A stretch of DNA of 64,000 nucleotides from Halopiger goleimassiliensis. Lineage in GTDB: Archaea > Halobacteriota > Halobacteria > Halobacteriales > Natrialbaceae. The stretch is from NCBI RefSeq assembly GCF_000455345.1, contig NZ_HG315690.1, positions 1,873,360 to 1,937,359 of the forward strand, read 5' to 3'. How positions within the stretch are numbered: position 1 is the stretch's first letter; each line of letters opens with the position of its first letter. Both the position numbers and the translations under genes were made by a program. Below are positions 24,598-27,871 of the stretch, piece by piece. Below the pieces are notes generated by a model. That model had not been told where the DNA came from, did not search any database, and saw only the letters and a program-made list of their open reading frames with translations.

Positions 24598-24736
24598 GGT
24601 AGCTTTTGGCAACTGTCGCATTTCAACTCTCCGTTCCGCTCAGTTCCGTGTGACCTCGGCGCAGGCAGCGGGGAAAAAGAAAGGGCTTTTGTAACCCCGA
24701 TGGATACGATTGAGTGCGGACAGAAAGACACGGCGA

Positions 24737-24821
<85 letters not shown>

Positions 24822-24828
24822 TCGCACG

Positions 24829-25079
24829 GGTGGACGCAGTCCACCTAAAAAGCGCGGCCGAAGGCCGCGAAACGCGAGGCGGGCGTGGAACCGTCAGGTC
24901 CCACGGAACGTCGAACGGGCCTTGCCCGTGAGACGGTCTGCCGCCGAGCGACACGATGCAGGTGATTCCCTCGAAGGGACATCACCCACGCACAACTTCC
25001 TTCGGGAACCCACACCGGATAGCGGCGAGTCTCGCGTCTCCCGACGAGCGGCCTCGCCGGCCACCGCCTCGAGTGCGGT
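24829..25079 (+). ncRNA. Candidate structured RNA downstream of tRNA-Leu
   Basis: Nearly all of this interval pairs locally. Stems are 24829-24845 (7 bp), 24854-24868 (6 bp, GAA loop), and an outer GGCGG/CCGCC stem (24878-24882 with 24941-24945). The outer stem encloses two hairpins, 24884-24905 (GTCA loop) and 24909-24935 (tandem G-A internal loop). Then come 24961-24986 (11 bp with one bulged C), 24997-25008 (C-UUCG-G tetraloop), 25023-25059 and 25063-25079. No reading frame fits. The consensus cores of RNase P and SRP RNA were not recognised. It could be a separate RNA, a tRNA trailer or an asnB leader. High GC makes some pairing expected by chance. Confidence 0.4.
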
Positions 25080-25174: not shown

Positions 25175-27073
25175 ATGTGCGGTATCGTCGGCGCGTACGG
25201 GTGGGCCGATGAGAGCGTCCTCTCCTCGATGCTCGACTGGGTCGAACACCGGGGACCGGACGAAGAAGGGACGTATCTCGATCGAGACGCCGGGATAATG
25301 ATGGGGGCACGGCGGCTCTCCATCGTCGACCTTTCCGGCGGTTCGCAACCGAAGGTCAACGAAGACGGGACGGTTAGCGTCGTCTTCAACGGAGAGATCT
25401 ACAATCACGCCGCCCTCAGAGAATCGCTCGAACGGGAGGGCCATCGGTTCGAGAGCCGGTCCGATACCGAGGTCCTGGTCCATCTCTGGGAGGAATACGG
25501 CGAGGCGATGGTCGACCACCTCGAGGGGATGTTCGCCTTCTCCATCTGGGATCGGGATGCGGAGACGGTCTTTCTCGCTCGCGACCGACTCGGCATCAAA
25601 CCGCTGTACTACGGACGGGCCGACGGCGGCTACGTGTGGGGGAGCGAACTCCCCGCCTTGCTGATCGGCGGCGTCGATCGCACGCTCGACCCGGCGGCCG
25701 TCTTCAATCACTTTTCGCTCGAGTACGCGCCCGGTTCGCAGACGCTGTTGCGGGACGTGAAAAAGGTACAACCGGGGCAGACGGTGCGGATCGACGCCGA
25801 CGGCGTTCGGGAGCGAACGTACTGGAACCTGCTGGACGTCGAAACCGGCGGGACGACGCTCGACTTCGCGAGCGCGGCCGACCGATTGCGGGAACTGCTG
25901 GAGCGGTCGGTCGAAAAGCGACTCATGGCGGACGTCCCCGTCGGAGCGTTCCTGTCGGGCGGGCTCGACTCGTCGGCCATCGTCGGCATCGCCTCTGAGC
26001 GGACCGAGGACCCGCTCGAGACCTACGCCGTCTCCTTCGAGGACCCGCAGTTCGACGAGAGCGAGGAGGCCCGGCTCGTCGCGGACCACTTCGGAACGAA
26101 CCACCACGAGGTCACCGTCGACCTGTCGTCGATGGAGCTGTTCGACGACCTGATTCGGTACCTCGGCGAGCCCACGGGCCACCTGCAGATGCTCCCGCTC
26201 TTTCTCCTCTCGGAACGCGCCAGCGAAGACGTCAAAGTCGCCCTCGCGGGTGAAGGAGCGGACGAACTGTTCGCGGGCTATCCCCGGTATCGACGGGTGT
26301 CGGAGTACAAACGAGCGGTCGATTTCCTCCCGCAGTTCACTCACACCGTCGCGGGCGCGATGGCCCCGGTGGCACCGGTCGGGGAGAAGTACCTCAGGTA
26401 CTATTCGTGGCTCGAGGACAACGCCGAAGTGACGTTACACCACGCCTGCGGGTTCATGCCGTTTCGACCGGACCCCGAGGAGTTCCTCGACACCGGGGAA
26501 ACCGCCGAAACGGCGGGGCTCCGCGGGTACGTCACCGACGTGACCGGGCGGGTCGACGACCCGGCTCCCGAACAGCACATGTCGGCGTTCGAAACGAGGT
26601 ACACGCTGCCCAACTACCACCTGTTCAAGGCCGATCACACGAGCATGGCGCAGTCCCTGGAGCTTCGAGTCCCGTTTCTGTCGGCCGACATCGCCGAGTT
26701 CGCCCACTCGTTGCCGCTCGAGTACAAGATCACGGACGGGACTGCGAAGCGGGTGCTCAAACGCGCCGTCGGCGACCTGCTCCCCGACGACATCCTCGAA
26801 CGGAAGAAGATGGGGATGCGACCGCCCGTCGAGGACTGGTTCCGGGAGGAGCACGAGGCGATCGAAACGTGGTTCGCCCGGGAGAAACTCGAGAACGCGC
26901 CGTACGTCGACGCCGACGAGGCGATGGCGCTCCGGACCGCCCACCGGCGCGGCGACGAGTCGGCGGGACGAACGCTCTGGCTGATCCTCACGTACGTCGC
27001 GTGGTACCATACGTTCATCGACGAGCGAACGTCGATTATCGACGGCCGGTTACCGGAGCGGAAGGTCCCGTGA
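25175..27073 (+). CDS. asnB: Asparagine synthetase (glutamine-hydrolysing)
   Basis: A 632-residue two-domain enzyme. The glutaminase domain starts MCGIVGAYG, with Cys2 as nucleophile after Met removal, and has LSIVDLSGGSQP, NGEIYNHAALR and RSDTEVLVHLWEEYG. The synthetase domain has the ATP pyrophosphatase loop FLSGGLDSSA (about 257-266), GEGADELFAGYPRY and MAQSLELRVPFL. It converts aspartate to asparagine with ATP and glutamine; related enzymes act on cell-surface glycan precursors. The start is fixed by the catalytic Cys2. It follows the hairpin-rich region after tRNA-Leu and stands alone. Confidence 0.95.
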   Translation: MCGIVGAYGWADESVLSSMLDWVEHRGPDEEGTYLDRDAGIMMGARRLSIVDLSGGSQPKVNEDGTVSVVFNGEIYNHAALRESLEREGHRFESRSDTEVLVHLWEEYGEAMVDHLEGMFAFSIWDRDAETVFLARDRLGIKPLYYGRADGGYVWGSELPALLIGGVDRTLDPAAVFNHFSLEYAPGSQTLLRDVKKVQPGQTVRIDADGVRERTYWNLLDVETGGTTLDFASAADRLRELLERSVEKRLMADVPVGAFLSGGLDSSAIVGIASERTEDPLETYAVSFEDPQFDESEEARLVADHFGTNHHEVTVDLSSMELFDDLIRYLGEPTGHLQMLPLFLLSERASEDVKVALAGEGADELFAGYPRYRRVSEYKRAVDFLPQFTHTVAGAMAPVAPVGEKYLRYYSWLEDNAEVTLHHACGFMPFRPDPEEFLDTGETAETAGLRGYVTDVTGRVDDPAPEQHMSAFETRYTLPNYHLFKADHTSMAQSLELRVPFLSADIAEFAHSLPLEYKITDGTAKRVLKRAVGDLLPDDILERKKMGMRPPVEDWFREEHEAIETWFAREKLENAPYVDADEAMALRTAHRRGDESAGRTLWLILTYVAWYHTFIDERTSIIDGRLPERKVP

Positions 27074-27301
27074 TACACGGAGTAGACGCCAGAATCACCC
27101 GATCCGGCGCTGGCAGGGTGAACCGTCGTGCCGGGGAGAGCCCGCCGACGAGCAGCGGGCCTCGCTCCCTCCCCTCGTCGTACCGCTCGAGGAAGGGACC
27201 TGTTCTCGAGCGCGCGAACACGGCCACGGGGATCGCGGAAGCGACTTCGTCGACGGCGGGGAGACGGTAACGACTTTCCTGCCGCGTCCGAAGGTCGAGA
27301 C

Positions 27302-27871
27302 ATGGACCTGCAGGTCGTCTCTCGAGAGCGCGTCGTCCCCCTGACCGCCGTCCTGAGCGTCGTCTCGCTCGCGGTCGTCTTCGCGGCCGCGGGCAACCGG
27401 ATTCCCAGTTCGGCGGTGCCGATCGCACCGCAGTGGGTCCTCGACCTGATTCCGACGATCAACGCCGTGATCAGCGCGGTCGCCATCGCGACGATCGCAA
27501 TCGGGTGGCGGGCGATCCGTCGCGGCGCGATCGATCGCCACCGGGTCGCGATGGTCGCCTCGTTCGGACTGTTCGCGACGTTTCTCGCCCTCTACCTCTA
27601 TCGGCTCGTCGCGACCGGCGGTCCGGATCCCTTCCCCGGGCCGGAGGCGGTCGCGCTGTACGTCTACTATCCGGTCCTCGCGGTTCACATTCTGCTGGCG
27701 ATCGTCTGCGTGCCGCTGGTCTACTACGCCCTCCTGCTGGCGTTCGCGTACCCGATCGAGGAACTGCGCCGTACCAGTCACGCCCGGTTCGGCCGCGTCG
27801 CGGCGAGCCTGTGGCTGATCTCGTTCTCGCTGGGGATCGTCGTCTACGTGCTGTTGCACGTCGTGTACTGA
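27302..27871 (+). CDS. DUF420 family membrane protein
   Basis: A 189-residue membrane protein with about five helices: SVVSLAVVFAAAGN, LIPTINAVISAVAIATIAIG, VAMVASFGLFATFLALYLY, VYYPVLAVHILLAIVCVPL and SLWLISFSLGIVVYVLL. It shows the family's intramembrane His residues, in HRVAMVAS and AVHILLAIV. DUF420 proteins are related to cytochrome oxidase assembly factors (CtaM-like), so a role in heme-copper oxidase maturation is plausible but not shown. ATG 27302 gives the first helix in the right place; the upstream frame is Arg-rich shadow. Confidence 0.85.
   Translation: MDLQVVSRERVVPLTAVLSVVSLAVVFAAAGNRIPSSAVPIAPQWVLDLIPTINAVISAVAIATIAIGWRAIRRGAIDRHRVAMVASFGLFATFLALYLYRLVATGGPDPFPGPEAVALYVYYPVLAVHILLAIVCVPLVYYALLLAFAYPIEELRRTSHARFGRVAASLWLISFSLGIVVYVLLHVVY

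Follow-up and report, generated by a model that had tools for sequence, protein, structure and literature searches.

The question raised by this locus is what a densely folded, non-coding stretch between a tRNA-Leu gene and the asparagine synthetase gene asnB (positions 24829-25079) represents in Halopiger goleimassiliensis, the window being the whole analysed stretch of 64,000 nucleotides. An earlier note, made from the sequence alone, had drawn a series of stems here, had recognised no known RNA core and had offered three readings, i.e. an independent RNA, a processed tRNA trailer or a leader controlling asnB. All of the stems it named are present at or near the places it gave. They comprise the two hairpins at 24829-24845 and 24853-24869, a multibranch whose closing helix is GGCGG/CCGCC (24878-24882/24941-24945) and which has a GA/GA tandem beneath this helix and two sub-hairpins above it, a tandem G-A loop inside the sub-hairpin at 24909-24935, a singly bulged 11-bp hairpin (24961-24986) and a UUCG tetraloop (24997-25008). 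The 251-nt stretch has a folding energy of -122.2 kcal/mol compared with -102.4 ± 5.1 kcal/mol for shuffled sequence (z = -3.9), which is better than 200 of 200 dinucleotide shuffles. Furthermore, a scan with the Rfam 15 covariance models, read up to an E-value of 10, yielded the tRNA at 24737-24821 as its sole match.

While the hairpin-rich region is real, it turned out to be only one part of a larger feature, whose conserved portion starts just before and inside the tRNA (24733) and stops near 25010-25025, conservation being little or none in 25025-25079. Conserved in position are the hairpin at 24829-24845, the helix 24873-24882/24941-24950 and, most of all, the segment 24954-24995. The two inner sub-hairpins occur only in some relatives, and it is their insertion into helix H2b in the Halopiger genome that accounts for the dense hairpins noted before.

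When the intergenic stretch served as a DNA query (cut-off E 0.01), 118 of the 125 genomes of the family gave matches, which are centred on 24950-25000 of the window. The covariance model R1, which describes the core hairpin and was built on a cleaner subset of the alignment, matches 323 of 391 Halobacteria genomes and 73 of 86 genera, typically once or twice per genome. In a sample of the entire phylum it matches 43 genomes of the same order and none of 242 elsewhere. In the Halopiger genome itself R1 finds one strong site, accompanied by the reverse strand of the same hairpin at E 0.003. The element is not universal, since approximately 17% of the sampled genomes of the class are without a match; in two core-less genomes (loci L030 and L079) the start of a tyrosine-integrase-like frame, judged by eye from the sequence, lies just behind tRNA-Leu(GAG). 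Carriers include Natrinema, Natrialba, Halorubrum, Haloarcula, Haladaptatus, Halorussus, Halogeometricum and Halobacterium salinarum (L211). In about 120 distinct loci that were read, the core lies directly 3' of tRNA-Leu(GAG) regardless of the next gene, and this holds for the loci of all nine families read. Class-wide conservation, covariation (see below) and absence from Rfam strongly support the reading of the region as a structured RNA, specifically the trailer that extends the 3' end of tRNA-Leu(GAG). An RNA wholly independent of the tRNA is less probable, since in the covarying helix that carries most information the core is paired with the 3' end of the tRNA itself. The parts of the element are as follows, all on the forward (+) strand, with N and A denoting the two alternative folds described below.

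24733 to 24736, +: leader GCGA, the 5' strand of P0, which in fold N is partnered by trailer UCGC (24822-24825).
24737 to 24821, +: tRNA-Leu(GAG) (ARAGORN; Rfam tRNA, 44 bits), with acceptor GCGTGGG/CCCACGC and discriminator A at 24821.
24819 to 24824, +: GCA-UCG, the last three tRNA and first three trailer nucleotides, spanning the expected tRNase Z cut; 5' strand of P1 in fold A, 97% of cells paired.
24829 to 24845, +: hairpin H1, GGTGGAC-GCA-GTCCACC, whose stem is kept in most trailers; stems of 5 bp or more occur at this position in 100 of 116 distinct trailers, with 56 different 5' arms.
24853 to 24869, +: hairpin H2a, CGCGGCC-GAA-GGCCGCG, present only in some relatives.
24873 to 24950, +: optional helix H2b, CGC-GA-GGCGG/CCGCC-GA-GCG, whose tandem G-A is replaced by AA/AA in locus L023.
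24884 to 24905 and 24909 to 24935, +: the inner sub-hairpins of H2b in the Halopiger genome.
24954 to 24959, +: CGATGC, the 3' strand of P1, whose UGC alternatively pairs with GCA 24990-24992 (P3, fold N).
24961 to 24986, +: core hairpin P2, GGTGAT TCCCT CGA AGGGA C ATCACC, described by R1, with covarying distal pairs.
24984 to 24991, +: ACCCACGC, which repeats the acceptor 3' strand of the tRNA and is near-invariant across loci and, in constrained folds, the fold A partner of tRNA 5' GCGTGGGT (24737-24744).
24993 to 25000, +: CAA-CTTCC tail, whose conserved form is NAA followed by a pyrimidine tract; possibly a 3' end or termination zone.

The order behind the tRNA is UCGC, H1, the optional H2b and then the core, with the consensus CGAUGC - A - GGUGAU ... 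AUCACC - CAC - GCA - NAA - pyrimidines. In the minimal form, found in a few species, the interval between trailer start and core is absent and P1 alone constitutes a small hairpin, as in GCAUC-GCAA-GAUGC (L121) and GCAUCC-ACUC-GGAUGC (L130). Large structured insertions occupy the distal loop of the core hairpin in L071, L156, L158, L186 and the second copy of L016, the base of the hairpin and its flanks being unchanged. Moreover, tandem second Leu trailer units were observed in L016, L023, L040, L119, L147, L150 and L167; these are preceded by a partial 3' part of tRNA-Leu, whose T-loop holds a structured insert of 60-110 nt.

Since the trailer bases, the core UGC and the acceptor strand each have two possible partners, two mutually exclusive folds can be drawn. 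Fold N comprises the native acceptor, P0 (leader GCGA/trailer UCGC), P2 and P3, while fold A comprises P1 (GCAUCG/CGAUGC), a swapped acceptor and the distal part of P2. P0 and P1 are thereby rivals for the same trailer bases, and the core UGC pairs either with GCA of the tRNA (P1) or with its own GCA (P3). In addition, the core CCCACGC is identical to the 3' acceptor strand of the tRNA and, together with the preceding A, can pair with GCGUGGGU.

Across families, P0, P1 and P2 covary at their variable pairs. In P1, changes in the trailer are matched by changes in the core (TCG/CGA, CTG/CAG, CTC/GAG, TCC/GGA and TCT/GGA), so that 338 of 351 cells are paired, a level reached by none of 2000 shuffles and, when each of the 12 distinct combinations is counted once, by 9 of 5000; the pair types are UA33/CG17, CG33/UA15 and GC34/CG7. 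Counted by genus and trailer type, P1 appears to have changed independently at least four times. P0 takes the form ACGA/UCGU in L071, L136, L137 and L156, and in the TCG group it features 236 Watson-Crick, 3 GU and 5 other cells. In count tests on composite rows with the loops cut out (50 distinct sequences, whose shared ancestry is uncorrected by the shuffles), fold A was 97.5% paired with a score of 0.232 versus 0.090 when shuffled (0 of 500 shuffles), and fold N was 93.8% paired with a score of 0.138 versus 0.061. Slid controls stayed far below both folds.

The swapped acceptor helix rests on near-invariance rather than covariation, because the acceptor of the tRNA is constant in all loci. 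Its 3' strand CACCCACGCA is near-invariant, while the facing 5' loop reads A, G, C, AC, UC, AUAC, GA or is empty, a pattern that a simple hairpin does not explain. Taken together, two mutually exclusive, covarying folds of near-equal predicted energy conform to what is expected of a bistable switch, the alternative acceptor helix itself being invariant. On the other hand, two species of one family (G010, L166; G068, L165) have kept CACCCACGCA behind a CTACG trailer but lost the UGC and P1 together, and such a core without P1 counts against a switch.

With the acceptor forced to be either native or swapped, nearest-neighbour calculations, which take no account of molar salt or of the tertiary structure and modification of the tRNA, predict that folds N and A are nearly isoenergetic, the median difference (swapped minus native) across 117 loci being 1.7 kcal/mol. 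When P1 is broken, this difference moves by +2.9 kcal/mol in favour of the native acceptor, whereas breaking P0 shifts it by -4.2 kcal/mol in favour of the swap. In the window the predicted minimum-energy structure is the swapped fold, by 0.3 kcal/mol. A partial exchange of the acceptor, limited to G1-C2, is unfavourable at a median of 6.5 kcal/mol above native, and full exchange is therefore preferred.

These features lead us to favour, tentatively, the reading that the structured trailer of pre-tRNA-Leu(GAG) acts in cis as a two-state RNA that gates maturation, a function that we infer from sequence and folding models. The tRNA/trailer junction is the site cut by tRNase Z. In fold N, the normal acceptor stem would be extended by P0 and the core closed on itself by P2 and P3. 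Fold A would instead use P1 to join the core to the trailer and to the three terminal tRNA nucleotides, and the core ACCCACGC would take over from the 3' strand of the tRNA as partner of GCGUGGGU. As the tRNA is transcribed first, fold A requires strand displacement, which is a point against the switch. Because P1 covers the tRNase Z junction and the stacking of acceptor and T-stem would be broken, fold A would most likely block tRNA maturation, and the balance between the folds would set the rate at which the leucine tRNA precursor matures. Candidate triggers for shifting this balance are ions, a protein or removal of the leader by RNase P, and without P0 the predicted balance tips towards fold A by approximately 4 kcal/mol. 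If such a switch exists, haloarchaea would control the supply of the CUC-reading tRNA at the maturation step; CUC is the commonest leucine codon (55 of 106) in the three window genes counted.

The element resembles riboswitch-type bistable RNAs in having two folds, while its signal and output are hypothetical. The T-box riboswitch of bacteria, which resides in mRNA leaders and senses tRNA in trans, likewise employs mutually exclusive helices involving the 3' end of a tRNA; in contrast, the haloarchaeal element sits in the precursor of its own tRNA and has no regulated mRNA downstream. 3'ETS-leuZ, a spacer of a bacterial tRNA-Leu precursor for which a function as an RNA sponge was proposed, differs in that it contains neither an acceptor copy nor pairing with its own tRNA and belongs to an unrelated organism. 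We know of no class of regulatory RNA that resides in the trailer of a tRNA and offers a substitute acceptor strand. The openly accessible literature searched contained no description of a haloarchaeal tRNA-trailer RNA or tRNA-linked repeat, although an uncharacterised sRNA at this locus may be listed in one of the Haloferax sRNA surveys.

Two further RNA types known from archaea share single traits with the element. Haloarchaeal H/ACA guides of the HP1/HP2 type carry a conserved A-N-A triplet behind a hairpin (PMC2584109, PMC4652768), and such a triplet is found here as GCA-NAA, with A[CTA]A in most rows. H/ACA guides are, however, defined by a K-turn or K-loop, a guide pocket measuring roughly 5-8 plus 5-6 nt and a lower stem of about 9 bp (PMC4652768). 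The element, by contrast, is tied to the 3' end of a tRNA and lacks the K-turn or K-loop, the pseudouridylation pocket and the 9-bp lower stem: its core, UGC-A-GGUG/CACC-CAC-GCA, contains an internal loop of 1/3 nt and ends in a variable terminal loop. An H/ACA guide was hence rejected, only the triplet fitting the published haloarchaeal anatomy. Bulge-helix-bulge (BHB) motifs, also known from haloarchaea, likewise pair distant sequences on either side of a mature RNA (PMC7714728). This assignment was rejected as well, for inspection by eye revealed a single 3-nt bulge (CAC) beside GGUG/CACC and, in both folds, no 4-bp helix with two 3-nt bulges; none of the seven BHB-flanked circular RNAs reported from Haloferax lies at such a locus (PMC7714728).

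Self-copies downstream of tRNA genes are not confined to tRNA-Leu(GAG). As a control, 29 tRNAs of the Halopiger genome (L260-L289) and 29 of a genome from a distant family (G149, L349-L378) were examined. An exact copy of the acceptor 3' heptamer follows within 250 nt downstream of 16 of the 29 Halopiger tRNAs, Leu(GAG) included, compared with one copy upstream and none in a farther stretch. Copies of the T-arm downstream amount to 16 antisense and 16 sense, with none upstream, and in the distant genome 13 of 29 tRNAs are followed by self-copies. Approximately half of the examined tRNA genes are followed by trailers in which their own 3' end recurs in both antisense and sense orientation. The generic layout of these trailers consists of an antisense T-arm copy, an inner hairpin (e.g. 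AGTCGCAGC...GACCGTCT) and, in sense orientation, a repeat of the T-arm together with the acceptor 3' strand. When eight were folded, the swap ranged from 6.2 kcal/mol more stable to 1.3 kcal/mol less stable than the native form. It is conceivable, if rather doubtful, that these constitute a haloarchaeal class of self-antisense trailers with switchable maturation, in which the antisense copy captures the displaced acceptor 3' strand and the sense copy replaces it, Leu(GAG) being the deeply conserved member.

The main rival to the maturation switch is an origin from mobile DNA: the element may be the domesticated remnant of an integrative mini-element that targeted tRNA genes, with an attachment-site-like acceptor copy, hairpins serving folded-DNA recombination and an incidental effect on the tRNA. 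We consider this unlikely, even though it would accommodate the 16 of 29 and 13 of 29 tRNAs with downstream 3'-end copies (as opposed to none or one upstream), the antisense T-arm copies beside them, the tandem units with partial tRNA-Leu copies in several families and the tyrosine-integrase-like frame behind the tRNA of L030 and L079, itself a reading of the sequence only. Generic elements also vary in their inner hairpin and are gained and lost between genera at tRNA-Val(CAC) and tRNA-Glu(TTC); this quick turnover looks like that of mobile or scar DNA and, being mobile-element-like, argues against the switch. The Leu(GAG) element, on the contrary, is without T-arm copies, stable across the class and confined to one locus, and its repeats in the window enclose no cargo. 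Moreover, G-U is tolerated over A-C (23 versus 10 cells), which is a better fit to an RNA in the sense of the tRNA.

A related comparison concerns the partial tRNA duplications left by integrated elements, where 3'-end copies likewise follow an intact tRNA but lie kilobases apart and flank cargo (PMC3119063, PMC8371274). The direct repeat is present at Leu(GAG), where the CCCACGC copy lies 163 nt downstream of the tRNA; a T-arm copy at this tRNA and cargo between the window repeats were looked for and neither was found. With copies about 30-165 nt away, free of cargo, structured and class-wide, the Leu(GAG) element is, to judge by its sequence, not an ordinary integration scar. If the mobile origin nevertheless applied, it would imply an unrecognised family of tRNA-tracking mini-elements, and under either this or the switch reading the result is a conserved RNA missing from Rfam that is directly testable in Halobacterium salinarum.

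Quite unlikely, in our estimation, is a trailer-derived small RNA acting in trans, for instance on other pre-tRNA-Leu via CGAUGC plus ACCCACGC, or on other targets. The separate conserved fold, the possible pyrimidine-rich 3' end and complementarities that could serve in trans would suit such an RNA; P1, however, is strongest before trailer cleavage, because it uses the last three nucleotides of the tRNA. That the element is a structured signal for the 3' end or for termination of the tRNA transcript, without any switching, appears improbable: the core hairpin is indeed followed by NAA and a pyrimidine tract, and 3'-end hairpins can terminate transcription in Haloferax (PMC7237163), but a terminator needs neither an exact acceptor copy nor pairing between core and tRNA 3' end over a variable spacer.

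Finally, a leader controlling asparagine synthetase, suggested by the start of asnB at 25175, approximately 175 nt downstream of the core, is hardly credible and was rejected on gene order, as conserved linkage to a regulated gene is lacking and asnB lies downstream in 1 of 132 loci, that of the Halopiger genome only. In this count, which took the nearest among three tested downstream genes, DUF420 follows in 49 and MBF1 in 16 of the 132 loci, both names being our presumed assignments from the protein sequences. The gene order in family f1 is MBF1, tRNA plus element, DUF420, and in examples from family f5 it is reversed, with the tRNA and element flipped together between these two genes. A DUF420-like gene directly follows the element in many relatives, and in the window asnB (25175-27073) is apparently an insertion that separates the tRNA element from the DUF420-like gene at 27128-27871.
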